From: Acidobacteriota bacterium
GTDB taxonomy: Bacteria; Acidobacteriota; Terriglobia; Acidiferrales; UBA7541
NCBI GenBank assembly: GCA_013289585.1
Contig: JABCZR010000001.1
Location: 310,001-374,000, forward strand
DNA: 64,000 nucleotides
Direction of reading: 5' to 3'
In this document: in pieces, positions 3,172 to 22,393 of the stretch
Layout: every line of letters starts with the position of its first letter
How positions within the stretch are numbered: position 1 is the stretch's first letter
Notes under the pieces: generated by a model
What the model saw: the letters and a program-made list of their open reading frames with translations, nothing else
Told to the model about the DNA's origin: nothing
The model's database searches: none
Translations under genes and position numbers: made by a program

Positions 3172-3454
3172 TTGAACCTCCCGAAATCGCTACTAGGGCG
3201 ATGCCGTTCCCCAGGCCGCCGTGCGGCCGTAATTCAAAAGCTGAGCTTGCGTCCCTATTCCGTGAACGATCAGGATTCGGCCAGGGCGCGGATGTCCTTA
3301 CTTATCTATAGGCTAGCAAAAGAGGATGCAGGGTGGCGACGGCAAGGAAAGGGGCTTTGCGCAAATAATTACCACCAGATCAGGCAGGCGGTCCGGGGGA
3401 TGCAGGAACCTCTAGTAATAGTACTCAGTGAAGATTGAAACGCGCGCGAGTCAC

Positions 3455-4756
3455 TCAGAGCGAGCGAAGAAACGCGAACACCGCTTCCTTTTCCGCGGGC
3501 TTGAGCTTTTCAAACTTATCGGTCACCTGCTCGGCTTCGCCGCGGTGGCGCGCGATGGCGTCCAGAAACGTGAGTGAGGCGCCGTCGTGCATCAGACGCG
3601 GCCGCAAGCGGACCCCCCACAAGGGAGCAGTGCGGATCTTATTGCGGCTGCTCTCGAAATCCTGTTTCGAGAGATAGCCGGACATCTGCTGAAAGACTTT
3701 GCGCCCGTAGTGCTCGGGAATGGTCTGCAAGATTCCGTCCCCGGTGCCGACGTTGTGCATGAGGAAGTCGCCCCAAGGATGGAAGGTGATCGAGCCGAGG
3801 GCTGACGGAATCGTGAAGGTTCCACCATTAATCTTTGTTCCCGCGGGAGCAGTGGTCAGTGCCGCCACATGGCATGTTGCGCAGCCGATCTTCTCGAAAA
3901 GAGCGCGACCTTGCTGTGCGACGGCGCCGCCGGCGAGCTGCGCATCGGGCGCGGGCGCCTTGGTAGCGCGAATGAATCGGGCAAAGTGGTCGATATCGGC
4001 GAGGCCGTCAGGACCGGGGGTGTCGTTGGGCTCCGAGACGGTATTGCAGATTTTGGTGACTTCGTCAGGCTGGAGGCGGTTGGTAATGCCCATTTCGTTG
4101 AGGTAGGCATCGCCGGCGAACGATAGCAGGCTGGCGTGCTGATCTTTCCAGCCGAAACGGCCTACGCCCATTTGTCCGGGCGCTTCCACGACGGGCACAA
4201 AGAGAACCTGACCGCAGATTTTCCCATGCGAGTTTTTGCATTGCTGCTTCGCGAGATCGGTAAGGGATTGGTCGGCGACGGCCTCCACGAAGCCGTCTCC
4301 CAATAGGTTCAGAGAGAGACGAAACGTGCGGATGTTCTCCGTGTCTGGAACGCGTTCCTGGATTTCCTTGTCCGGAAAGGCCGCGTTAGGACAAATTGCA
4401 CGGTCGTTCACCAGGGAGCGGCCGGTGATCACTTCGGTTCCGTGAGCAATCGGAATGCTCGGAGTTTCGAATTGTCCGTGCGGGCCGTTGTGACCGACGC
4501 GCAATTCGGTCACCTGGCTGGAAGCGCCGGAGACGGGACTCTGATGGCACTCGCGGCAGGATTGCGCGTTATACAACGGGCCCAGACCGTCGGCGAGTTG
4601 CTCGATTTCATCAAACTTCACTTGATCGGCGGTGTGCGTGGCGTCGTCCACCAAGCCATTGCTCTTATTGTCGAAGCCCGTGGGCGCGTCGGAAAGCGGC
4701 GGCGCGAAGAAGAAGAGGGCCAGCAAGAACGCAGGAATACCGATGAGGATCTTCAT
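3455..4756 (-). CDS. Di-heme cytochrome, DHOR/DUF1111 family (putative thiol oxidoreductase or peroxidase)
   Basis: The 433-residue secreted protein starts with a hydrophobic signal peptide (residues 1-24). It has two c-type heme sites: CRECH near residue 67 and CATCH near residue 291. The spacing, the later LMHDG segment and the C-terminal AVFAFLRSL match the DHOR family of di-heme proteins, which resemble MauG and cytochrome c peroxidase. These act in the periplasm on unknown electron donors. It stands alone, with no cognate transporter or maturation gene nearby, so its substrate is unknown. Confidence 0.85.
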   Translation of the reverse strand: MKILIGIPAFLLALFFFAPPLSDAPTGFDNKSNGLVDDATHTADQVKFDEIEQLADGLGPLYNAQSCRECHQSPVSGASSQVTELRVGHNGPHGQFETPSIPIAHGTEVITGRSLVNDRAICPNAAFPDKEIQERVPDTENIRTFRLSLNLLGDGFVEAVADQSLTDLAKQQCKNSHGKICGQVLFVPVVEAPGQMGVGRFGWKDQHASLLSFAGDAYLNEMGITNRLQPDEVTKICNTVSEPNDTPGPDGLADIDHFARFIRATKAPAPDAQLAGGAVAQQGRALFEKIGCATCHVAALTTAPAGTKINGGTFTIPSALGSITFHPWGDFLMHNVGTGDGILQTIPEHYGRKVFQQMSGYLSKQDFESSRNKIRTAPLWGVRLRPRLMHDGASLTFLDAIARHRGEAEQVTDKFEKLKPAEKEAVFAFLRSL

Positions 4757-4860
4757 GGAGACCTCGCAGGGCTGGTTAGCAGAAATCTACTGAAATGCTG
4801 AGTAAAAACCAAGAGAAAAGAAGTTAGGGAAAGATCGAGGTAATTTGATTTTTGGTGCGA

Positions 4861-7005
<2,145 letters not shown>

Positions 7006-7110: not shown

Positions 7111-8427
7111 CTATGGCTTGCGTTGACCGAGGGCTCTCATTTCACTCCAGAGGACGAATAGGAAATAGATCGAGAGCAAGAGAAGTTCGGGCTCGATGGC
7201 GTGGCGATACTTGGCGACCGGATAGACGAAGTAATAGGGGATGGGGTAGACGATGAGCGCGGAGGCGAAGAGAAGCCAGCCGCGGGGACGACGGGTCAGC
7301 AGAAAAAGTAGGCCCAGCCAGCCGCCGAGGGATAGCGGCCAGAACTCCCAGGGCTGCCACCATTCGCGAGACTGATAGAGCAGCGGCGTGCCATCCCAGA
7401 ACCACCACGCACGGTGGAACGTGAGTTCGCGGAATTCGGCGGGATATTGACGCACAAAACGAAGGCCGTCTTGCTTGTAGTATTCGAGAAACTGAAGTTC
7501 TCCCATGGAGGCATATTGTTTGAACACGGCGGCATTGGAGTCTGGATGCTTGCCGCTGTAACCCATTCCGTTGCTGAAGTGATAGTTGCCGAGATGGAAT
7601 TCGAACCAGAAATTGCTGCGGAAGAAAACCGGCCGGCCGAAGACAAGTTCGTTGCGAATCAGCCAGGGCGAAACCAGCACGGCGAAGAGAAGGCCGGCAA
7701 GAGCCATAGAAGCGAACCAGGGGCGGAAGGCGCGATGGTTGACGTAAGCCACGTAGAGAAAGGTGAATGCCATCACGCTGAGCAGGGCGGGATTGGTGAG
7801 CGCGATCACGGCCCACAGCGCGCCGAGAGCGAGCCAGAGTTTTCGCGTGTCTTTTTCCGCGACATCGAGAGTGATGATGAAGACGGCGGAAAGAAGAAAC
7901 GCGCTGGCGGTGAAATCCCAAATCCAGGAAACGGGCCAGCGGAAGAAAATAGGGCTGAGAGTCCAGATCCATGCGGCGCAGAATCCCACTTGTGCACCGA
8001 AAGTGCGGCGGCCCAAGGCGTAGATGGTGATGCCCGTTGCGGCGGCAATGATGCATTGGATGCCGAGGAGCACGAGCGCGGAGGCCGTGGAATAGATGCC
8101 GAAGATTCGAAAGACCAGGGCGCATAAATAAGGATAGATGGGAGCGATCCAGGCGGTAGGGCCGGTGTCCTGGTAAAAGGGCGAACTGAAACCTTGCCCC
8201 CGGACGATATGCTCGGCGATGCTGCAAATTTCCGCTCCGAAAGGAAGAATCGAGCCGGGGGAACGGACGTAGGTTTTTTTCCAGAGGACGAAACCAAAGC
8301 GCAGAACGAATCCGCAAAATAAAAGCAAAATGTGCAAGTTGCGATCGGAAGTTTTCTGTGGAGGCGAGTCGGGAATCTCGGGAGCTTCCGGCGCGATGAC
8401 GGGCATAGTGTTTATTGTGGGAGACAA
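7111..8427 (-). CDS. GT39/ArnT-like membrane glycosyltransferase or polyprenol-phosphate-sugar transferase
   Basis: The 438-residue polytopic protein has about nine to eleven hydrophobic segments after a Pro-rich cytosolic start. The first periplasmic loop holds an acidic/aromatic region and PFYQDTGPTAWIAPIYPYL, which resembles the catalytic first loop of GT-C enzymes such as ArnT and PMT. These enzymes move a sugar from a lipid carrier to lipid A, protein or polymer on the outer face of the inner membrane. The exact donor and acceptor cannot be inferred. It is a lone gene, separated from the upstream tRNA by 140 bases. Confidence 0.7.
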   Translation of the reverse strand: MSPTINTMPVIAPEAPEIPDSPPQKTSDRNLHILLLFCGFVLRFGFVLWKKTYVRSPGSILPFGAEICSIAEHIVRGQGFSSPFYQDTGPTAWIAPIYPYLCALVFRIFGIYSTASALVLLGIQCIIAAATGITIYALGRRTFGAQVGFCAAWIWTLSPIFFRWPVSWIWDFTASAFLLSAVFIITLDVAEKDTRKLWLALGALWAVIALTNPALLSVMAFTFLYVAYVNHRAFRPWFASMALAGLLFAVLVSPWLIRNELVFGRPVFFRSNFWFEFHLGNYHFSNGMGYSGKHPDSNAAVFKQYASMGELQFLEYYKQDGLRFVRQYPAEFRELTFHRAWWFWDGTPLLYQSREWWQPWEFWPLSLGGWLGLLFLLTRRPRGWLLFASALIVYPIPYYFVYPVAKYRHAIEPELLLLSIYFLFVLWSEMRALGQRKP

Positions 8428-8567
8428 TCGGAAAGGCTCGCAAGGTGGAGTTTGCTAAGCACACTCCTACTCGGCACTACGAAGACTAGGGTATGAACTG
8501 AATGCCAGGATGCGGACCGCGGAAAGTCAACGTGGGACGCCAAAGCCGATAACGGAAAACGGGAGAA

Positions 8568-8644
8568 TGGTAGGCCCGTGGGGACTCGAACCCCAGACCT
8601 CTACCGTGTCAAGGTAGCGCTCTAACCAACTGAGCTACGGGCCT
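8568..8644 (-). tRNA. tRNA-Val (GAC anticodon)
   Basis: The 77-base sequence on the minus strand folds as a cloverleaf. The 7-bp acceptor stem AGGCCCG/CGGGCCT has discriminator A and an encoded CCA. The D arm is GCTC...GAGC. The anticodon stem CTACC/GGTAG encloses loop TTGACAC, giving anticodon GAC, which reads GUC and GUU valine codons. The T arm carries GGTTCGAGTCC. All key invariant positions are present. Confidence 0.97.
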
Positions 8645-8766
8645 AGAATCCGTAAAGTTTAGCATGACTGGTGCAGCAAAGCTGCGGCCAGGCTCACGAG
8701 ATTTGGGATGCTGCTGTAGAATGCGGCAGGCATTCGCAAGATCGTGCGGGCGGGAGCGCATCCAGC

Positions 8767-9426
8767 GTGAACGTGAAAATCGATGAGGGGTTGAAGAAGA
8801 AATGTCCGCGCGTGGCGCTGGGATGCGTGACGGCGCGCGTGGAGGCGGGGGTGTCGCCGGCGGCGCTGACGGAAGAGATGAAGACGCGGGACGCGGAGAT
8901 CCAGAAATTGCCGTTTCCGCGCGGGGTGCTGGCGTCGCCGCAAGTGGAAGCGACGCGCGCGGCGTACAAGGCGCTGGGAAAAGATCCGGCGCGATATCGC
9001 AACTCGGCGGAAGCGCTGCTGCGGCGCGTGGTGGGTGGAAAAGGATTGCCGGTGATCAACGCGGTTGTGGATGTGATCAACCTGGTGTCGGTGGAGAGCC
9101 GAATGCCGGTGGGGCTGTATGACCTGGGGCATGTGGTGGGAGAGATTGTTTTTCGCGCGGGGCGCGCGGGGGAAACGTACAAGGGAATCGGGAAGTACGA
9201 TTTGAATCTGGAGGGATTGCCGGTATTTGTGGATACGGTTGGGCCGCATGGGAGCGCGACGAGCGATTCGGAACGGACGATGGTGACGGCCGAGACGCGC
9301 GAGATTCTTGCGGTGATTGTTTCGTTTGGCGGGGCGGAAAATCTGGAACGGTGGACGCAGAGACTTGGGGCGCTCTTGCAGCTGTATGCTGCGGGGACGG
9401 AGATAGTGACGAAGATAGTGGTTTGA
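8767..9426 (+). CDS. Stand-alone B3/B4-domain protein (PheT-like tRNA-binding/editing fold)
   Basis: The GTG at 8767 begins a 219-residue protein; an in-frame extension back to 8671 exists, but its residues look non-coding and overlap tRNA-flanking DNA. The sequence around LPVINAVVDVINLVSVESRMPVGLYDLG and the later TSDSERTMVTAETREIL match B3/4 proteins. In phenylalanyl-tRNA synthetase beta the B3/4 domain edits mischarged Tyr-tRNA(Phe). Free-standing versions are widespread and may act as trans-editing or tRNA-binding factors. It is far from the pheST genes at 53-56 kb. Exact function is unproven. Confidence 0.8.
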   Translation: MNVKIDEGLKKKCPRVALGCVTARVEAGVSPAALTEEMKTRDAEIQKLPFPRGVLASPQVEATRAAYKALGKDPARYRNSAEALLRRVVGGKGLPVINAVVDVINLVSVESRMPVGLYDLGHVVGEIVFRAGRAGETYKGIGKYDLNLEGLPVFVDTVGPHGSATSDSERTMVTAETREILAVIVSFGGAENLERWTQRLGALLQLYAAGTEIVTKIVV

Positions 9427-13618: not shown

Positions 13619-14152
13619 GTGCATCGCAATATCCGGGCGTGTGTGGCTGTGCTGCTTGCAGCGGTCGGCGCCCAAGTTCTTCCTTCTGCGCCACCGGCGC
13701 AGGCGCAAACTGCTCCAACTGCTGCAGAACTGCGAATTAATGGCGCGGTTTCCACTCCACTGGTCTTAACCGTTTCCGATCTGAAAAAGATGCCGCGCAA
13801 AACAATTTCGGTAATGAATCCGCACAACAAGAAGACGGAAATGTACGAGGGCGTGCTTCTGGAAGAACTCCTTCGCAGAGCCGGCGTTGCGCAAGGCGAA
13901 CAACTTCGTGGGGCGTCGATGGCCACGTACGTAATCGCGGGAGCGGAAGACGGTTATCGCGTGGTGTTTTCCCTGGCAGAACTGGATTCGGGGATTCTCG
14001 AATCCGAAGTGATGGTGGCGGATACCATGGACGGAGCTCCTCTCGGGGCGAAAGAAGGCCCATTCCGGCTTGTCGCGCCGCATGAGAAGCGTCCCGCCCG
14101 CTGGGTCCGCATGCTCAAGTCCATCACTGTCGTCCGCGCTGAAGCTCAATAA
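13619..14152 (+). CDS. Secreted sulfite-oxidase-fold protein without the molybdenum-ligating cysteine
   Basis: The GTG at 13619 starts a 177-residue protein with a signal peptide cut near residue 30 (PPAQAQ). The mature part resembles the oxidoreductase molybdopterin-binding domain: LRINGAVSTPLVLTVSDLKKMP at its start, GYRVVFSLAELDSG in the middle, and GPFRLVAPHEKRPARWVRMLKSITV near the end. The only cysteine is in the signal peptide, so the usual Cys ligand to Mo is missing. The full-length enzyme family is larger. It may bind a pterin or related ligand without Mo catalysis. It probably forms an operon with the Mop gene. Confidence 0.78.
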   Translation: MHRNIRACVAVLLAAVGAQVLPSAPPAQAQTAPTAAELRINGAVSTPLVLTVSDLKKMPRKTISVMNPHNKKTEMYEGVLLEELLRRAGVAQGEQLRGASMATYVIAGAEDGYRVVFSLAELDSGILESEVMVADTMDGAPLGAKEGPFRLVAPHEKRPARWVRMLKSITVVRAEAQ

Positions 14153-14194: not shown

Positions 14195-16681
14195 TTAGTC
14201 GGAGCGCAAGGCTTCCATTACGTTGATGCGGGCGGCGCGTGCGGCCGGGAGCGCGGACGCGACAACCGCAGCCGCGAGCAGGATCAGTGCTGAGGCGACG
14301 ACGGGCACGGGGCTGGGCATGCGCACGTCCAGGAAATAGCTGCCGGCAAAGCGGGCCAGGAGATATCCGCCGGCTGCGCCCACGAGGACTCCGGCAATGG
14401 CCATGATGGCGCCTTCGCCGATGACTCCGGCGAGGAGACGGCGGGGCGGCGAGCCGAGAGCGAGGCGGATGCCAAATTCGCGAGTGCGCGCGCTAACGGA
14501 GAAAGCCAGAACACCTGCGACGCCGACAAGCGCGATGGCCAGCGCGACTCCGGCAAAGACGCCGAAAACGACCGTGTTGAGACGATCCGGAGTGAGGACT
14601 TCGGCACGAACGTCCTCAAGAGTAGCGGCGCGTTCCACAGGCTGGTCGACGGACATATCACGAACAATGCGAGTGACCGGCGTGACGAGCGAATAAGGAT
14701 TTGCGCTGGTGTGGATGAAAAGGCGACCGCCAAAAATGGGACCTTCATCAATCGGGCTATAGACGGTGAGGATGGGCCCGGGAACGACGTGTTCGTCGTC
14801 AATATCGGCGGTGACGCCGATGATGCGGTGGGGCGCAGTGCTAATTCCGGGAATGAATTTGATCACGGGATCCGTCCAGTAGACATGGCGATTGACGGCA
14901 TCCTGATTGGGGAACATGCGCTTGGCGAGAGTCTCACTGACGATGACGACGGGATCGTTGTTCTTGCCGTCAAGTTCATTGAAATCGCGCCCCGCGATGA
15001 TGGGAACGCCAAGCGCGGCAAAAAATCCAGGAGAAATGGTGCGCAACTGGGCGCGAGGATCCTCTTCGCCAGGACCTTTAACGTGGAGGTCCGCGGAAAA
15101 GGCAAAACCCGGGCCAAAGCTGCCGGCATCACGCCAGGGAACGACAATGCCAAAGGCGGTCTTGTTCACACCGGGCAGGGCGTCAATGCGGCGCATGGAC
15201 TCCTTGTAGAAATCGACGATTTGCTGAGGCGTTTTTCCGTAAGAGATAGCGGGAACGTTGATGGCGAGAACGTGGCGCGTATCGAGGCCGGTCTGCGCGG
15301 CCTGCATGGCAAGGAGCGTTTTGAGAAGCATGCTGGCGCCGGCGAGGAGCATGAAAGACGCCGCGATCTGAGTAATAGCGAAGATGCGAAGTCGGCGGCT
15401 AGTGCTGCCGGTGATGCGGACACCGCCGCTGGTGAGGCCGGGCGTTTGCGCGGAGTTGGCATTCGGAAGGTGTGGCACATAGGCCAGCAGGACTGCGGCG
15501 ATGACCGCCAGGATGGCGCCGACCCAGAGCATGCTGGAATCCACAGTAAGGTCGAGGGCGCGGACGGAAAAGCGGGAGGCGTAGCGCGCGAGAACAGCCA
15601 GGAGCGGGCGCGCGGTGATGACTCCCAGAGTGGCGCCGACAACGCAGAGGATCAGACTCTCCGCGAGCAAGGTCCGGCGCAAAGCGCTGGGGCTGGCTCC
15701 GAGTGCGGCGCGAATCGCGAGTTCGCTTTCACGGCGAACGGTGCGCGCGAGAATCAGATTGGCGACGTTCGAGCAGGCGATGATGAACACCAAGCCGGAA
15801 GCAGCGAGCAAAACCAGAAGGACGGTGCGGGCACCGGAAGTGATTTGGTCGCGCAGGAGGACGGCGCTGATCTGCGAGCTACCATCTTTCGAGTAGTCCG
15901 CGGGATACTGGCTGACCATCGAGGCGTAGACGGTGCGAAGCTCGGCGCGGGCCTGGTCAACAGTTGCGCCCGGAGCGAGACGGCCGAAAAGTTCGGTCAT
16001 GCGGTGAACGCGGCCGGTGACCATGGTGGCCGAGAGGTGGTGAGGGCTGGTCACAATGTTGGCGATGATTTCCGTGTCCGCTGGATAAGGAACAGAGGGT
16101 TCGAGGACGCCGATGATGGTGGCGGAGCGATCTCCCATGCCGCCGCTGCCGAGGCGAAGCGTCTTGCCGAGGACGGAAGGATCGCTCTTGAGAGCGGTGG
16201 ACCAAAAGCGATAGGTCAGCACGACCACGCCATCAGCCTTGGGACCGTCGTCTTGCGGGCCGATGAGACGACCGAGAACGGGATGAAGGCCCATAACCTC
16301 GAAATACGTTCCGCCGACAACGCCTGCGCGGACTTCGCGGGGTTCGCCGAGACCGATCATGGTGAAGCCGACGACAGAGAAATCACCGAATTCGCTGACT
16401 GTGTGGATGCCCGACTTGATGTCCTGAATCTCTGGTACGGAGAAATTGGCGTTTTCGACGCCGAGGCTGGGCGCGCTTTGGCGAATGTAGATCAGGCGGT
16501 CCTCGTCCGCATTGACGAGCGGACGCAGAAGGACGCCGCGCACCAGACTGAAGATGGCGGCGTTGGCGCCTATGCCGAGAGCCAAAGTGAGAACCACGGT
16601 GATGGCCAAGCCCTTGGCGCGCGCGAGGGAACGGACGGCAACTTTCAAATCCTGGAGGAACAAGTCGGGTTTGAGATTCAT
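14195..16681 (-). CDS. ADOP-family MacB/FtsX-like permease (no PadR partner)
   Basis: The ATG at 16681 has an AAGGGG Shine-Dalgarno; an extension upstream overlaps non-coding DNA. The 828-residue protein has two tandem permease units. Each unit has one N-terminal membrane helix, a large periplasmic MacB_PCD domain and three helices of the FtsX domain. Hallmarks are ALGIGANAAIFSLVRGVLLRPL near residue 30, ACSNVANLILARTVRRESELAIRAALGA in the middle and FGIRLALGSPPRRLL near the end. ADOPs carry no ATPase domain and usually pair with a separate one. This copy lacks the N-terminal cap seen in the two other window copies. Confidence 0.9.
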   Translation of the reverse strand: MNLKPDLFLQDLKVAVRSLARAKGLAITVVLTLALGIGANAAIFSLVRGVLLRPLVNADEDRLIYIRQSAPSLGVENANFSVPEIQDIKSGIHTVSEFGDFSVVGFTMIGLGEPREVRAGVVGGTYFEVMGLHPVLGRLIGPQDDGPKADGVVVLTYRFWSTALKSDPSVLGKTLRLGSGGMGDRSATIIGVLEPSVPYPADTEIIANIVTSPHHLSATMVTGRVHRMTELFGRLAPGATVDQARAELRTVYASMVSQYPADYSKDGSSQISAVLLRDQITSGARTVLLVLLAASGLVFIIACSNVANLILARTVRRESELAIRAALGASPSALRRTLLAESLILCVVGATLGVITARPLLAVLARYASRFSVRALDLTVDSSMLWVGAILAVIAAVLLAYVPHLPNANSAQTPGLTSGGVRITGSTSRRLRIFAITQIAASFMLLAGASMLLKTLLAMQAAQTGLDTRHVLAINVPAISYGKTPQQIVDFYKESMRRIDALPGVNKTAFGIVVPWRDAGSFGPGFAFSADLHVKGPGEEDPRAQLRTISPGFFAALGVPIIAGRDFNELDGKNNDPVVIVSETLAKRMFPNQDAVNRHVYWTDPVIKFIPGISTAPHRIIGVTADIDDEHVVPGPILTVYSPIDEGPIFGGRLFIHTSANPYSLVTPVTRIVRDMSVDQPVERAATLEDVRAEVLTPDRLNTVVFGVFAGVALAIALVGVAGVLAFSVSARTREFGIRLALGSPPRRLLAGVIGEGAIMAIAGVLVGAAGGYLLARFAGSYFLDVRMPSPVPVVASALILLAAAVVASALPAARAARINVMEALRSD

Positions 16682-16755
16682 GGTGCGACACCCCTTAAGT
16701 TGATGACGCGGGACCGAGAGAAACGTTTCAGAATTCTTTCGAGCGACCCCGCAAT

Positions 16756-17154
16756 CTAGCTGCGCAGGGGAACAAGGGAGCGCAGCCGTGCGTCGCGCAA
16801 ATAGAGTCCCAACCAAAGCAAAACACCGCATAGCACGGGCCCTATGAAGGCTGGATCACCCACGCGCGCGTGAGTGGCGGTGGCACCGCCAAGATAGGCC
16901 GTCAGCAGAATCGCGCCGAAAATGGCCGTGCGCGGGATCAGGTAGATGGCGGTAAAAGTGAGCTCGATGATGGTGAGCTTCAGAATGATGCTCTCGGAAT
17001 AGCCCAACTGAGCGAAGCCCCGCAAAACCGGGGGCGGCTTCAGTATCTTCGCAGTGGCGCTGGTGAGTAGCAGCAACACGGGTATGATGCTGAGGATGCG
17101 TCCGGCCCAGAGCGCGCCCTTCGGGATGGGAGCTGCTTGCGTAGCAGAATCCAT
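16756..17154 (-). CDS. DoxX-family membrane protein
   Basis: The ATG at 17154 is preceded by a strong AGGAGGAAAA Shine-Dalgarno, which decides the start against a longer upstream frame. The 132-residue protein has four hydrophobic helices with the DoxX pattern GRILSIIPVLLLLTSATAKI, then ELTFTAIYLIPRTAIFGAILLTAYLGGATATH. DoxX-like proteins act in inner-membrane redox chemistry, often linked to thiosulfate or quinone use, but most are uncharacterised. It lies 85 bases downstream of the MoaD-like gene on the same strand, so it may belong to the HxlR-controlled unit. Confidence 0.85.
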   Translation of the reverse strand: MDSATQAAPIPKGALWAGRILSIIPVLLLLTSATAKILKPPPVLRGFAQLGYSESIILKLTIIELTFTAIYLIPRTAIFGAILLTAYLGGATATHARVGDPAFIGPVLCGVLLWLGLYLRDARLRSLVPLRS

Positions 17155-17239
17155 GCGATTTTCCTCCTGATGCGCAACATAAAATACCAAAAAACCGAAA
17201 TCGTTTCCGGTGCTGCGAAACTTGCAGCACCCCTGGCCC

Positions 17240-17536
17240 CTAGCCGCCGGCAATGGCGCCGATGATGAGGAGAGGTTCGGCGCCCGACGCGATTTTGTCT
17301 GGAAGCGGAGTATCGGGCGGCTCGAGGGAATAATCCTCCTCGCATGCGAAGAAACGCAAGAACGGGCGGCGCTCGTGCGTGACATGATCGCGGATGGTAC
17401 CTCGCAACATGGGATATTGTGCTTCGAGCGCGTCGAGCACGGAACGCTGTGTGACCGTGCCCTCAATGTGAAGCTGCACTTCGGCACCGACGCGCGCGAG
17501 TGCGCGCAAGTGCCCGGGAAGCACGACGCGGATCAT
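17240..17536 (-). CDS. MoaD/ThiS-like ubiquitin-fold sulfur carrier
   Basis: The 98-residue protein begins [14 protein letters not shown] and ends in Gly-Gly (IIGAIAGG), the C-terminal tail that is adenylated and thiocarboxylated in MoaD and ThiS. Its ATG overlaps the TGA of the upstream Asp-box gene (ATGA), so the two are translationally coupled. No MoaE, ThiG or E1-like partner is near. Pairing with a BNR-repeat protein recurs in several phyla, but its purpose is not known. A conventional molybdopterin role is possible but not supported by neighbours. Confidence 0.85.
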
Positions 17537-18720
17537 GCGAGCGTCTGGACCTCAACGGAAAGAACAGCCGGAAGATGTTCCACAATGGGGGTCCAACTGT
17601 CGCCGGCATCGGGGGAGCAGTACACCTGACCGCCGGTGGTGCCGAAATAGACGCCGCATTTATCGAGTGAATCAACGGTCATGGCATCACGCAAAACGTT
17701 CACATAGCAGTTGCTTTGGGGCAGGCCCTTGGTCAGGGCTTCCCACTCGTTTCCACCGGACTTGCTGCGGTAGACACGCAGCTTGCCCTCGGGTGGGTAA
17801 TGCTCACCGTCGCTTTTGATTGGGACGACGTAGATGGTCTCCGGGTCGTGCGCATGAACGTCGATCACAAACCCGAAGTCGGTGGGCAAATTGCCACTGA
17901 TTTCCTTCCAGGAATCGCCGGCGTTATCGCTGCGCATGACGTCCCAATGCTTTTGCATGAAGAGTACATTGGGACGCGAGCGGTGCATGGCGACGTGGTG
18001 CACGCAGTGGCCGACTTCGGCCGTGGGTTCGGGAATGTATGGTGAGACCAGACCCTTGTTGATAGGCTTCCAGGTGTTGCCGCCGTCGTCGGTGCGGAAA
18101 GCACCCGCGGCGGAAATGGCGATGTAAATGCGGTTCGGATTGGCCGGATCCAGAATTACGGTGTGCAGGCACATTCCCCCGGCACCCGGCTGCCACTTGG
18201 GACCAGTGCCATGACCGCGCAAGCCGGAGAGTTCTTTCCAGTTCTGCCCGCCATCCGTTGAACGGAAAAGAGCTGCGTCTTCCACTCCGGCGTAGACGGT
18301 ATCCGGATCGGTGGGCGAGGGTTCGATGTGCCAGACGCGCTTGAATTCCCAGGGATGCTGGTTGCCGTCGTAGAACTGATGAGTGGTGAGGGGTTTCCCT
18401 GTTTCCGCGGAGGTATCGTAGACGAACTTGTTGCTTTCGCCTTTGGGCATTCCTCCTGGTCCGGTGGTCGATTCGCCGGGAGGCGTGCCCGGTTGCGTCC
18501 AAGTTTTGCCACCGTCATCCGAGCGCTGAATGACCTGCCCGAACCAGCCGCTGGTCTGGGAGGCAAAGATGCGATTCGGGTCGGCAGGCGATCCCTTGAG
18601 GTGATAGATCTCCCAACCGGCAAAGTGCGGGCCGCTGACGCCCCACTTTTCGCGCTTGCCGTCCGAAGTCAGGACGAATGCGCCCTTTCGTGTACCTACC
18701 AGTAGTCGTACGCCGCTCAT
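17533..18720 (-). CDS. Asp-box (BNR/sialidase-like) beta-propeller protein
   Basis: The 395-residue protein opens with [14 protein letters not shown] and has at least six Asp-box-like turns, among them [32 protein letters not shown] and PDAGDSW. These mark a six- or seven-bladed propeller of the sortilin/exo-sialidase type. No signal peptide is visible, so it is probably cytosolic. The catalytic Arg triad of true sialidases is not evident, so hydrolase activity is doubtful. It has an AGGAG Shine-Dalgarno and overlaps the MoaD-like gene by four bases. Transcription probably starts at the HxlR-controlled region at 18720-18875. Confidence 0.85.
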
Positions 18721-18832: not shown

Positions 18833-18857
18833 TTTTACTTGCAAAATGCAAGTTAAA
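18833..18857. promoter_or_regulatory. Operator-like dyad between hxlR-type regulator and Asp-box operon
   Basis: A perfect 7-bp inverted repeat ACTTGCA-aaa-TGCAAGT (18837-18853) extends with TTTT/AAAA flanks to 18833-18857 with one mismatch. An extra GCAAGT half-site lies at 18820-18825. The dyad ends 17 bases before the HxlR gene's GTG and lies about 110 bases from the divergent Asp-box gene. HxlR proteins bind such dyads as dimers, so this is the likely autoregulatory site. Confidence 0.7.
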
Positions 18858-18874: not shown

Positions 18875-19381
18875 GTGGCAAAGAAGAAGCCCAGTACAAA
18901 GTGGCGGTCGGGGTGTCCCTTGAACGCTTCGGTGGAGATATTGGGGGACCGCTGGTCGCTGCTGATTATTCGCGACATGGTGTTGCGCGGATTCCGAAGC
19001 TACAAGGAATTCCTGGAGTCCTATGAAGGAATCGCAACAAACATTCTGGCGGACCGCCTGCAAAAACTGATGGCTCATGGAATCATCTCCAGCCAACCAG
19101 ACCCTTTGGACGGACGAAAACTGATTTATTCGCTTACAGCCAAGGGCATCGATCTTGCGCCCGTACTCACGGAAATGGTGCTATGGGCCGCGGCACACGA
19201 AGAGACCGAAAATCCAGGGCTTGTCCGTCAAATAAAAATGGACAAGAAGCAATTTCTGGCTGCCGCGCGCCGACGCTGGACGGAAAGCGTTAGAAACGAT
19301 CGGCGCATGCTTGAGGTCACAAAGGAGGACGAAAGAGTCTCGCGTGAGAACCGCGCCGGGGATATCAAGAGCCTGGTTTGA
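18875..19381 (+). CDS. HxlR-family winged-helix transcriptional regulator
   Basis: The GTG at 18875 starts a 168-residue protein. The HxlR signature is clear: an early CPLNASVEILGDRW (Cys at about residue 14), the recognition region FLESYEGIATNILADRLQKLMAHGII, and the wing PDPLDGRKLIYSLTAKG. HxlR proteins often sense electrophiles or redox stress through the N-terminal Cys and control divergent oxidoreductase or DoxX genes. A perfect dyad lies in its promoter region. The divergent Asp-box, MoaD and DoxX genes are the likely targets. A Lys/Arg-rich C-terminal tail of about 50 residues is longer than in typical members. Confidence 0.9.
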   Translation: MAKKKPSTKWRSGCPLNASVEILGDRWSLLIIRDMVLRGFRSYKEFLESYEGIATNILADRLQKLMAHGIISSQPDPLDGRKLIYSLTAKGIDLAPVLTEMVLWAAAHEETENPGLVRQIKMDKKQFLAAARRRWTESVRNDRRMLEVTKEDERVSRENRAGDIKSLV

Positions 19382-19385
19382 ACGG

Positions 19386-22055
19386 CTACTCCCGCAAAGC
19401 TCTGGCGGGATCGATGTGTGATGCGCGCCAGGCAGGCAAGAGACATGCGGCCACGCTTACGACGGTCAAGATCATAAATGCGGAACCGAAGGCCAGGGGA
19501 TCGCGTGGGCTGACCTTATATAAGAGGTTCCCGAGCAGGCGCGTCAATGCAAAGGCCGCTACCGCGCCGAGGGCCACACCGCCAGCGGTCAACGCCAGAC
19601 CACGCGACAGAACCAGCTTAAGCAGATTGGAAGCGCCGGCGCCGAGCGCCATGCGCAACCCCATCTCTCGCGTGCTTTGCGACACCGTGTAAGACATGAC
19701 GCCATAGAGTCCGATGGCAGACAGAAGCAGCGCCAATCCGCCCAAGACCCCGACTAAAGTTACGGCCACCTGCTGCGGGGAGGTGGAGCGATCCAGCTGC
19801 TCTTGCAGCGTGATCACCTCGAAGAGGGCCAGGCCAGGGTCCAGCGCGTGCACTTCGCGGGTCAGTGCTGCCGCCATGGTCTCCGGGCTCAGCGGGGTTC
19901 GGATGTACAAGCCCGCGCCGCGGGAGAAATTCTGGCGCAGCGGAACATAGAAAAAGGACTTGGGCGCTTCGCGAACGCTTTCGTATTTGGAATCTTTTGC
20001 CACGCCGACCACCTGCATCCATCGGTCCTTGACCTGAACGCGCTCGCCAATCGGATTCCTGCCACGCCAATATTGCGCGGCCATAGTTTCATTCACGACG
20101 GCTACCAGAGCGGCCTTTTCGTCGTCCGCTCGGGTGAATTCGCGGCCGGATACCAGGAGTACGCCCATGGTCGCGAAATAATCCGGCCCCACTTCGTTGT
20201 ACTCCACGATGGGTTGCTCCTCCGGCGGAGGTTGATACCCGTCAACGGTAATCGGGGCCGAGGAATAACTACCGTAGCTCAGAGGCGTCATTCGCGCGAA
20301 GGCCGCGGACTCCACGCCGGGAAGCGCCTTCACGCGAGTGAGCAGCTCGTCCTGGAAACTCTGGGCGCGCGGAGCGTCGTATCCCGCGGCTGTCAAATTG
20401 ACGGCGGTGTCCAGCACGCCGCGCGTCGAAAAACCCGGGCTGGTATTTCGGATTTTCTGCAGGCTTTGCAGCAGCAGCCCCGCCCCAACCAGCAGAAGGA
20501 AACTTAGCGAAACCTGAACCATCACCAGGCCCGAGCGGACCCAGGCTCTTCCACCGCCGCCAACAACCCCTGCGGAATCGGATTTCAACGCGGCGGCAAG
20601 ATTGATCTTGCCGGTCTGCATGGCGGGAACCAGGCCGAGCAGAAGCGTGGCGAGAAAGCAAACGCCGCCGCTCACGGCCAGTACGCGCCAATCGATTTCT
20701 CCCGGCAGGTGCATGGCCACGCCACCCCGTGCTGGGAAGAGCAGCACGAGCGCATGACGGCACCAGTGCGCCACGAGGAGTCCTCCAGCTGCGCCGAAAG
20801 CCGACAGAATCAAGCCTTCGGTGAAAAGTTGCTTCAACAGCCGGCCGCGACCGGCGCCGATGGCGAGGCGCACGGTCATTTCATGCCGCCGCGCGAACGA
20901 CCTGACTAGCAGCAGATTGCCGACGTTGGCACAGGCGATGAGCAGAACAAAAACAACCACAGCAAGCATAATTTCGAGCGTGGGGAGCAGAGCGCCGGCA
21001 TTGTTGAACGGCGTTTCCCATAGCGGCCAAAGTCTTATGCCGCGACCTCGATTGGTATCCGGATAGTCCGTTTCCAGATGTTTGGCGACGGCGGCAATCT
21101 CCTGCTGCGCCTGTTCGCGGCTAACGCCGGGCTTCAGCCGCACGTAAGATTCAATCCAGCGCGCGCCGCGATCCTCGAGTTTGTAGCCACCGGCTTCAAA
21201 AATCTCCTCCATCGACGCGGGGACCCAGAACTGCATGGCCCAGCCAACAAACGTCCCGTAGAAACCTTCCGGCATGACGCCGACAATGGTATGTACTACG
21301 TTATTGAGCCGCTGCGTTTTCCCGATGATTTGCGGATCGCCCTTGAAGCGCCCTTTCCAGAGCTGGTAGCTAATCACCGTCACGGGATGGGCGTTGCGTC
21401 CCACGTCTTCGCCGGGCACGAATCCGCGTCCGAGAATGGGATGGACTCCGATGGCGTCAAAATAGTTTGCCGATACGATGCTACCTGTGGTGACCTCGGC
21501 GCGGTCGCCGATGCTGAGAGTGGTGCCCATGATTTTGCTCACGAAAAACGAGTCAATGAGCGTGCAATTCCTTTGCAAATCGAGAAAATCCGGCCAGGAA
21601 ACACCGGTTGGGCCGGATTCGCCGCGCGCCGTTCCCGTGAGAGCGAGAAGTTGCTCCTGATGGGTTACCGCCGGGTACGGACGGAATAAGATGCCTTCGA
21701 TCCAACTGAAAACGGCGGCATTCGCGCCGATGCCTAAGGTCAGACAAAGAATGGCGAGAAGAGAAAAACCGGGATTGCGGCGGACCGTACGAAGGCCAAA
21801 ACGGAGGTCTTGCAGAGCGGTTTCGATCATGGGAAGTCCTCTCTGATCGCGGAAGAGTTCCTTGGTCTGCTCGATGCCGCCAAAGCCGCGAAATGCCTCG
21901 CCGCGGGCCTCCTCGGGGGACATTCCTTTGCGGAGGTTCAGCTCCACTGCCATCTCCAGGTGCGAGCGCAGTTCTTCGTCCAGGTCGCTTTCGAGACGCC
22001 GGCGCTGGAGAAGCGCGGCGAGACGATGGATGAAAACGCGGATCGATTCGCGCAT
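19386..22055 (-). CDS. ADOP-family permease with N-terminal cap, paired with PadR
   Basis: The 889-residue protein begins with a cytosolic cap of about 80 residues (RRRLESDLDEELRSHLEMAV...EEARGEAFRGFGG) typical of ADOPs. Two permease units follow, with LTLGIGANAAVFSWIEGILFRPY, ACANVGNLLLVRSFARRHEMTVRLAIGA and MGLRMALGAGASNLL. There is no ATPase domain. It starts two bases after the PadR stop, so both are one transcription unit. ADOPs resemble MacB and LolCE permeases and may export or extract lipids or peptides under PadR control. Substrate unknown. Confidence 0.93.
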   Translation of the reverse strand: MRESIRVFIHRLAALLQRRRLESDLDEELRSHLEMAVELNLRKGMSPEEARGEAFRGFGGIEQTKELFRDQRGLPMIETALQDLRFGLRTVRRNPGFSLLAILCLTLGIGANAAVFSWIEGILFRPYPAVTHQEQLLALTGTARGESGPTGVSWPDFLDLQRNCTLIDSFFVSKIMGTTLSIGDRAEVTTGSIVSANYFDAIGVHPILGRGFVPGEDVGRNAHPVTVISYQLWKGRFKGDPQIIGKTQRLNNVVHTIVGVMPEGFYGTFVGWAMQFWVPASMEEIFEAGGYKLEDRGARWIESYVRLKPGVSREQAQQEIAAVAKHLETDYPDTNRGRGIRLWPLWETPFNNAGALLPTLEIMLAVVVFVLLIACANVGNLLLVRSFARRHEMTVRLAIGAGRGRLLKQLFTEGLILSAFGAAGGLLVAHWCRHALVLLFPARGGVAMHLPGEIDWRVLAVSGGVCFLATLLLGLVPAMQTGKINLAAALKSDSAGVVGGGGRAWVRSGLVMVQVSLSFLLLVGAGLLLQSLQKIRNTSPGFSTRGVLDTAVNLTAAGYDAPRAQSFQDELLTRVKALPGVESAAFARMTPLSYGSYSSAPITVDGYQPPPEEQPIVEYNEVGPDYFATMGVLLVSGREFTRADDEKAALVAVVNETMAAQYWRGRNPIGERVQVKDRWMQVVGVAKDSKYESVREAPKSFFYVPLRQNFSRGAGLYIRTPLSPETMAAALTREVHALDPGLALFEVITLQEQLDRSTSPQQVAVTLVGVLGGLALLLSAIGLYGVMSYTVSQSTREMGLRMALGAGASNLLKLVLSRGLALTAGGVALGAVAAFALTRLLGNLLYKVSPRDPLAFGSAFMILTVVSVAACLLPAWRASHIDPARALRE

Positions 22056-22057
22056 GG

Positions 22058-22393
22058 CTAGCTCGTCCTCAGCACCCGGTTGATCATTGTGGACATGCGA
22101 TCCCAGCTTTCGGCTTCCTGCGCGAGTTGTTTGCGTCCGGCGCGGGTCAGCGAATAAAACTTGGCCTTGCGGTTATTCTCGGAAACACCCCACTTGGAGG
22201 CAATCCAGCCACGCTGCTCGAGGCGCAGCAAGGCGGGATAGAGGGTGCCCTGATTCAATTGCAGCAGGTCCTGGGAGACCTGCTGGATGCGCAAGGCGAT
22301 CCCGAAGCCGTGCATGGGGCCCATGGAATCGAGGGTCTTCAGCACCAGCAAATCGAGCGTTCCCTGCAAGACTTCGGATTTGGAAGTTGGCAT
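22058..22393 (-). CDS. PadR-family transcriptional regulator
   Basis: The ATG at 22393 has an AAAGGA Shine-Dalgarno; a longer frame upstream is less likely. The 111-residue protein has the PadR winged helix: VLQGTLDLLVLKTLDSMGPMHGFGIA, LNQGTLYPALLRLEQRGWI, and a wing with AKFYSLTRAGRKQL. The short C-terminal helix is used for dimerisation. Placement directly upstream of an ADOP permease is the standard acidobacterial PadR-ADOP arrangement, and it probably represses that operon in response to a small toxic ligand. Confidence 0.93.
   Translation of the reverse strand: MPTSKSEVLQGTLDLLVLKTLDSMGPMHGFGIALRIQQVSQDLLQLNQGTLYPALLRLEQRGWIASKWGVSENNRKAKFYSLTRAGRKQLAQEAESWDRMSTMINRVLRTS

Follow-up and report, generated by a model that had tools for sequence, protein, structure and literature searches.

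The closest described relatives of the locus discussed here are the systems built around ubiquitin-like sulfur carriers, in which MoaE, ThiG, CysM and BexX accept sulfur from their own carriers, and an E1 enzyme of the MoeZR kind adenylates the C-terminal glycine of the carrier with its ThiF domain and delivers the sulfur with its rhodanese domain. To our knowledge, few acceptors for such carriers are known, and we know of no Asp-box beta-propeller that acts as the partner of one. According to the available part of one report, the mycobacterial MoeZR sulfurates both MoaD and CysO (PMC3227635); thus, one E1 can serve several carriers. MoaX, a fusion of MoaD and MoaE, is described in the available part of another as being cut after its Gly-Gly to work (PMC4326299). 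On the propeller side, the structure 3b7f is listed in the accessible portion of a 2009 survey as seven-bladed, with the function given as 'Not known' (PMC2716378). For PA1356 of Pseudomonas aeruginosa, the accessible text of one study states that the N-terminus, tested in a reporter assay, did not work as a Tat signal (PMC6085387), which fits a cytoplasmic propeller; a transcriptome paper mentions PA1356 once in its available part (PMC11538994), and the examined part of a further paper (PMC1779556) contains no mention of 'propeller', 'BNR' or 'sialidase'.

Blunt searches of the mainly open-access literature found no published description of a pair formed by such a carrier and such a propeller. 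The adjacency itself is already visible in public annotation, where the two genes stand side by side; what we add is the extent of the pairing, the reversal of gene order, the E1 neighbours, the signature of the propeller and the boundary of its family. The window, that is, the whole stretch of 64,000 nucleotides that was analysed, contains the pair together with the following features:

17533..18720, minus strand: gene for an Asp-box (BNR) beta-propeller of 395 aa, with an ATG start (Pfam; signal peptide absent by eye)
17240..17536, minus strand: gene for a MoaD/ThiS-type beta-grasp carrier of 98 aa, with an ATG start and the C-terminus GAIAGG
17533..17536, minus strand: ATGA overlap between the propeller stop and the carrier start (from the sequence; spacing shared by 60 of 105 carrier rows)
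18875..19381, plus strand: divergent HxlR-family regulator, with a Cys in SGCPLNAS (Pfam)
16756..17154, minus strand: DoxX_2 membrane protein, downstream of the pair (Pfam)
18837..18853, no strand assigned: palindrome ACTTGCAAAATGCAAGT in the gap between the HxlR and propeller genes, a candidate HxlR operator (from the sequence; like palindromes in 4 loci)
17194..17231, minus strand: hairpin (17209-17231) and terminator-like site (17194-17211) in the gap between the carrier and DoxX genes, weak (fold z -1.14)

The earlier note had read the two genes as overlapping by ATGA and the carrier as keeping a Gly-Gly tail, and both open reading frames and the terminal GAIAGG bear this out. The spacing of -4 seen in the window recurs in 60 of the 105 same-strand carrier rows, which come from 104 of 109 propeller loci, the window and its close relatives included, and the overlap is therefore not a matter of chance. 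The 109 loci combine the best 80 of 589 confirmed relatives, obtained by scanning contigs with the propeller, with 29 further loci of the same family, and 101 of their 103 complete carrier rows end in GG. Large permeases of the MacB/FtsX type flank the module on both sides (14195-16831 and 19386-22055), and a PadR regulator follows the second of them at 22058.

The best 80 of the 589 relatives are mostly labelled as Acidobacteria, and the other labels among them include Anaeromyxobacter, Chloroflexi, Gemmatimonadetes, Bacteroidetes, Spartobacteria, Nitrospira, Hydrogenedentota and Steroidobacteraceae. Most of these 80 loci are from metagenome bins, and identities of 77-83% across differently labelled bins point to recent transfer or misbinning for some of them. 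Among 297 genomes of the window's own phylum, the carrier profile matched 50 and the propeller profile 263, many of the latter through weak Asp-box hits. When the two match tables are read together, 41 of the 42 carrier rows with E<=1e-30 lie beside a same-strand propeller (at 1.8 kb in genome G172, and split by contig ends in G233), and the 42nd, in G330, starts at a contig edge. Weaker carrier rows without a strong propeller row were those of G112, which has two in-frame stops, and G165, which is partial. For three further phyla, surveyed around Steroidobacteraceae, Anaeromyxobacter and Chloroflexi centre genomes, a broader propeller profile (E 1e-40) matched 12 of 249, 22 of 146 and 73 of 201 genomes, respectively. 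We examined 65 of these loci (35 of the first two surveys and the best 30 of the third), and a same-strand carrier lies within 92 bp in 63, after the propeller in 48 and before it in 15; the two exceptions are L278, which ends at a contig edge, and L221, which has no carrier.

A pool of 164 loci, made up of the best 80 of the 589 scan loci, the 65 from other phyla, 8 from plasmids and 11 own-phylum loci of a second type, and counting three genomes twice (L110/L214, L054/L226 and L064/L251), contains 153 in which a carrier is encoded on the same strand no more than 2.5 kb away; in 135 the distance is at most 200 bp. The propeller comes first in 129 of the 153 and the carrier in 24. From the lower-scoring Chloroflexota rows we took 40 loci, 22 of them from the 43 middle rows (E between 1e-150 and 1e-101) and 18 from the 19 low rows (E between 1e-50 and 1e-41), leaving out four partial rows in between; in the middle rows the carrier is present in 16 of 22, after the propeller in 11 and before it in 5. 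When all family loci are taken together (best-scoring and middle rows), 169 of 186 are paired, counting carriers in either order on the same strand and up to 2.5 kb away. The order is reversed, with the carrier first, in 29 loci in which the pairing is kept, and a quick FastTree phylogeny, which gave long-branch warnings, has at least two changes of order. The divergence of the carriers matches that of the propellers (Mantel r 0.96, 152 pairs), as is also expected of co-inherited genes. The pairing extends across several phyla, and the genome-context survey for which the earlier note had called has thus revealed a conserved association.

The carrier goes with a definite family of propellers and not with Asp-box propellers at large, because a signature of conserved residues (H/H/QxH/R) and the pairing split the groups. 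Related Asp-box propellers without this signature have a carrier in 0 of 32 cases, which comprise 14 other propellers of the window's phylum (0/14, several cut by contig ends) and 18 low-scoring Chloroflexota paralogues (0/18). All 30 scored family members, 16 with and 14 without a carrier, keep 10 to 12 of twelve signature positions, whereas the 18 low rows keep 1 to 4 and the 14 other propellers 0 to 6. The genomes G972, G825, G800 and G843 each contain multiple low-scoring paralogous propellers (L319-L336), which share a different set of residues and have no carrier.

Seventeen of the 186 family propellers lack an adjacent carrier, three of them being cut by contig ends (L040, L057 and L278). 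The His/Gln/Arg set is whole in 13 of the 14 scored carrier-less propellers, with L318 as the exception, so the link between the two genes is strong and not absolute, and this conservation speaks for a propeller that may act, and whose function may not always need the carrier, when none is encoded next to it. The carrier of L061 is on the opposite strand about 5 kb away, that of L079 is elsewhere in the genome, and in the genome of L278 (G840) a carrier is found at the edge of another contig. No carrier was detected in the whole genomes of L084, L221, L177, L040 and L057 with the A1 profile, which could overlook carriers of other types, or in the flanks of L117-L119, L303, L305, L308, L311, L318 and L337; the genome of L177 (G219) gave no ThiF match.

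A model of the window's carrier built from 41 relatives is a confident beta-grasp, ubiquitin-like fold (pLDDT 92, pTM 0.85), and the solved structures closest to it in fold are SAMP1, CysO from a BexX/CysO complex, Mycobacterium CysO and Urm1, with MoaD also matched. In Foldseek, SAMP1 (3po0) was the best match at E 6.5e-5, and CysO (4n6e) was found at E 3.5e-4. By sequence, the carrier had no match in the PDB, neither it nor the carrier of L054 matched Pfam ThiS (PF02597) at the cut-off, and its library matches were weak (Pfam PqqD, E 0.19; NCBIfam SAMP1, E 0.12). The related carriers of L120, L178 and L172 pass the ThiS cut-off, and profile comparison joins the profile of the window's carrier both to a group of nine relatives that includes L120 and L178 (A6, E 2.6e-8) and to three other carriers of the same genome (A7, E 3.6e-6). 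The clade to which the window's carrier belongs has an invariant RR...RFF.C stretch of its own. With tblastn against plasmids, the carrier found no match and the propeller found 16 plasmid records.

Gly-Gly stands exactly at the stop in 144 of the 153 paired carriers and in 12 of the 16 carriers of the mid-scoring Chloroflexota loci. Among the nine paired carriers that end otherwise, those of L073, L174, L269 and L272 have 1 to 11 extra residues, those of L076 and L105 are truncated where their contigs stop, and those of L172 and L173 continue into another protein. In L172, the carrier, an SGG and the propeller follow one another in a single frame without a stop, so that the Gly-Gly is internal, and an assembly error in this single genome is possible. 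Propeller-carrier fusions were also considered for L165, L170 and L175 and rejected; there, the frame of the carrier has no stop across the propeller gene, which is read in a different frame, and only L172 is in frame. In L173 (G225:C227, minus-strand frame 264-2522), a carrier beside a second-type propeller has no stop after SGG and runs in frame into what by eye is a TypA/BipA-like GTPase, and in L304 (G958:C107), the Gly-Gly of a carrier-like match is followed by 203 further in-frame residues. In L122, a carrier-like gene (6081-6392) that adjoins a Nonomuraea propeller lacks the terminal Gly-Gly and ends in ALA, and L051 has one propeller followed by two tandem carrier genes (7885-8178 and 8515-8808).

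Elsewhere in the window's genome, MoaE (G000:C9:35909-36238) adjoins a separate ThiS-family gene, its MoaD (C9:36291-36521), and there are three further ThiS-family genes on C2, C16 and C3. Given these genes, it is most improbable that the paired carrier serves the synthesis of molybdenum cofactor or thiamine and lies beside the propeller for other reasons. What could be said in favour of this is that a protein with a molybdopterin-binding domain (PF00174) is encoded 3.1 kb from the pair (13619-14152), and that MoCF_biosynth genes lie no more than 1.5 kb from the pair in L035 and L036, near relatives of the window. Nevertheless, of one batch of 134 neighbour proteins just 2 match MoCF_biosynth, and this family is not among the 25 commonest for the other 130. 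The view of the earlier note that no molybdopterin partners are near applies to MoaE, which is on another contig, but not to the PF00174 protein or to the surroundings of the L035 and L036 pairs.

The earlier note had also suggested a search for a co-occurring E1-like gene, and such a gene is found directly beside the pair in six genomes. In L164 (=L047) and L091 it follows the carrier, and in L110 it precedes the propeller; it is divergent in L165 and in L166, where its neighbour is a fragment of a propeller at the end of a contig, and convergent in L273. Five of the six match MoeZR; Pfam recognises ThiF and rhodanese domains in L164, L091 and L165 and ThiF alone in L110, and the E1s of L166 and L273 match nearly the full length of MoeZR. 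In the best 80 of the 589 loci, an E1 lies within 500 bp in 3, against 0.058 expected (P 3e-5, for a distance chosen afterwards), and the corresponding P for 2 kb is 1.5e-3, the expectation being taken from the E1 density in 10 genomes of our own choosing that include two of the three positive loci. Most pairs have no adjacent E1. The window's genome encodes two ThiF proteins, both away from the pair, and one of them is a MoeZR in a cluster with a cysteine synthase, a JAMM protein and a CysO-like carrier (L168, G000:C16:112000-122000, at 3244-6247); L171, from another genome, contains a similar cluster. That each of the 50 carrier genomes has ThiF carries little weight, because ThiF occurs in 280 of the 297 own-phylum genomes anyway.

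Taken together, the contrast between 169 paired loci among 186 of the family and none among 32 without the signature, the canonical MoaD-MoaE pair elsewhere in the genome and the E1-like genes adjoining the pair in six genomes support the earlier proposal of a distinct conserved module. Two outcomes had been named as speaking against it, a carrier always accompanied by normal moaE/moaA sets and an absence of conserved pairing, and neither occurred. As for the two chemistries then offered, sulfur transfer and protein tagging, we favour the former because the E1 neighbours are of the MoeZR type, neither chemistry being demonstrated. In the tagging alternative, the C-terminal glycine of the carrier would be attached to target lysines, as with the SAMPs and Urm1, and the propeller would be a substrate adaptor or handle the tag. 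SAMP1 and Urm1 are indeed among the closest folds to the carrier, Urm1 does both jobs according to the available part of PMC8561144, and the Asp-box propellers sortilin, YCF48 and DAIP have been solved with peptides or proteins bound, as far as the accessible sources describe them. However, besides the type of the E1 neighbours, a single JAMM query gave 0 matches in the best 80 of the 589 loci and met only CysO-MoeZ clusters (L171, L168, overlapping L003, L115), and PADLOC returned no match, so we regard tagging as quite unlikely.

The propeller has BNR/Asp-box and Sortilin-type matches in Pfam, and although its model is of moderate quality (pLDDT 80), its relation to 3b7f is close both by profile (A2, E 3.4e-78) and, among the folds listed by VIA-align, by structure (Z 44.3 over 354 residues, rmsd 2.5). 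The sequence of 3b7f is about 36% identical to it, and the conserved H, H, QxH and R are visible in the alignment. The invariant columns of 25 diverse propellers include K12, W130, D156, W176, H186, S203, D212, H241, Q256, H258, W271, R344 and W376, and K12 is lost in some members scored later. We infer from the secondary structure of the model, and not from coordinates, that K12, S203 and Q256/H258 would be at B-C hairpins and W130, H186, H241 and R344 near the starts of inner strands, on the face opposite the Asp-boxes. The propeller frame of L236 (G786:C838:5864-6952) contains one in-frame TAG, from decay or error, beside an intact carrier.

This conservation also bears on whether the propeller could be a sialidase or another glycoside hydrolase, as annotated, and only indirectly linked to the carrier. 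Sialidases (GH33) have an invariant arginine triad, whereas R344 is the only arginine invariant across the 25 propellers (R263 is found in 24 and R318 in 22). The NCBIfam glycosylhydrolase model NF045728 (F510_1955) gives the propeller 81.4 bits, below its curated cut-off of 175, and the failure of the PA1356 N-terminus as a Tat signal, reported in the accessible text of PMC6085387, fits a cytoplasmic protein. Thus, in spite of the database name 'exo-alpha-sialidase' and of the GH74 xyloglucanases that rank after 3b7f (Z 29) among the folds listed by VIA-align, we consider a hydrolase very unlikely.

We therefore return to sulfur transfer. The two genes would encode a two-protein module, probably cytoplasmic, in which an E1 of the MoeZR kind would convert the Gly-Gly end of the carrier to a thiocarboxylate. 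The propeller would be the acceptor enzyme, with the tail of the carrier entering a loop face lined by Trp130, His186, His241, Gln256, His258 and Arg344 and often Lys12, and the sulfur might pass directly to a small molecule or a metal site held in the propeller. We put the chances at about even that MoeZR thiocarboxylates the carrier and that the propeller uses this sulfur in the cytoplasm, a chemistry that we infer from the observed pairing, the modelled fold of the carrier, its free Gly-Gly, the E1 neighbours and the conserved residues. The broader proposal, in which an undescribed sulfur-transfer system, found in the window's phylum and in no fewer than three further ones (labelled Pseudomonadota, Myxococcota and Chloroflexota), has the Asp-box propeller as its dedicated acceptor, perhaps in thiol or electrophile-stress chemistry, is put forward more tentatively and falls somewhat short of an even chance. 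Much of the same evidence could be accommodated by a non-catalytic complex, in which the carrier would serve the propeller as a stable subunit or as a chaperone and its Gly-Gly tail would plug the channel without being activated. Such a complex would fit the strict co-occurrence, the matched divergence (co-inheritance would produce it as well), the single frame of L172 with its internal Gly-Gly and the many invariant columns in carrier and propeller alike; it fits less well with the free terminal Gly-Gly of most carriers and the E1 genes that immediately adjoin the pair in six genomes, and we hold it to be unlikely, if the least unlikely of the alternatives to sulfur transfer.

The sulfur-transfer module may also have a regulator of its own in the window's lineage, where the divergent HxlR gene would probably control it. 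The window's HxlR is of a type linked to electrophile or disulfide stress. Its candidate operator is unique in the window at <=3 mismatches (the pattern was taken from the site, which matches itself by construction), and like palindromes stand upstream of the propeller in L035, L036, L037 and L040, that is, in 4 of 29 loci with an HxlR gene near, the other 25 having none. On the basis of the divergent gene and the shared palindrome, HxlR control of the pair is plausible in this lineage. By raw tblastn counts in the best 80 of the 589 loci, uncorrected for the frequency of these genes elsewhere, an HxlR homologue is near 29 (divergent in 11) and a DoxX homologue near 11; given these numbers, we treat both as associates and not as core parts. 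The earlier suggestion of HxlR control with a DoxX gene behind the pair thus stands as to the places of both genes and the plausibility of control, but the two are frequent and not core neighbours. L037 has a divergent HxlR gene followed by DoxX and then by the propeller. In the window, DoxX may be a unit separate from the pair, from which the weak hairpin and terminator-like site divide it; the stretch has 4 terminator-like sites against 3.0 expected. A search for sigma-70 promoters found none.

The commonest Pfam families among open reading frames within 1.5 kb were HxlR (14), DoxX_2 (10), 3-dmu-9_3-mt (10), DinB_2 (6), DUF4440 (6), YCII (5) and AHSA1 (at least 4), as counted in two batches from the 25 commonest of 93 and of 90 families. 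These frames were picked mechanically, so that some real genes, among them the E1s of L091 and L110, were missed, and 264 of the 272 were scanned, eight being left out. A cysteine synthase is a neighbour only in L082 among the best 80 of the 589 loci. In both L035 (8527-11563) and L036 (8004-11040), the pair has a MoCF_biosynth gene close by, together with a gene that by eye resembles MoeA.

If the sulfur-transfer reading is true, the pair would provide a new acceptor fold for ubiquitin-like sulfur carriers, as well as a function for genes annotated at present as 'exo-alpha-sialidase' and 'MoaD/ThiS family protein' and a correction of a common database name. It would also be a testable target in culturable bacteria, for example Cupriavidus and Pseudomonas, with the structure of one half already solved (3b7f).

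Compared with the described systems, the pair is nearest to those of MoaD, ThiS and CysO with MoeB or MoeZR, with which it shares a beta-grasp carrier, a free Gly-Gly, an adjacent gene for a putative acceptor and, beside some pairs, an E1 of the MoeZR type. In those systems, however, the acceptor is MoaE, ThiG, CysM or BexX, whereas the putative acceptor of the pair is an Asp-box beta-propeller. The carrier clade of the window differs from ThiS and MoaD carriers in general by its RR...RFF.C stretch and the absence of a Pfam ThiS match, and from the MoaD of molybdopterin synthase in that the carrier is not encoded with MoaE. MoaX resembles L172 in that a carrier is joined through Gly-Gly to its partner, but this partner is MoaE in MoaX and the propeller in L172, whose cleavage is only putative. 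Sialidases and GH74 enzymes have the same Asp-box propeller fold; the propeller of the pair has only one Arg that is invariant across the 25 sequences, has a carrier as its partner and is probably cytoplasmic. A plasmid copy of the P. aeruginosa carrier-propeller region, with DUF899, sigma-factor, YciI, VOC and YbaK genes, is found in L120 (1-6643), and its propeller is PA1356. Members of the propeller family itself include 3b7f (Reut_B4987), by both sequence and fold, and PA1356, identified by the N-terminal sequence given in the accessible text of PMC6085387; next to PA1356, as in the window, lies a MoaD/ThiS gene; in P. aeruginosa, unlike in the window, the carrier comes first, the propeller is 27% identical, and the pair is found among YciI, VOC, DUF899 and sigma-factor genes.
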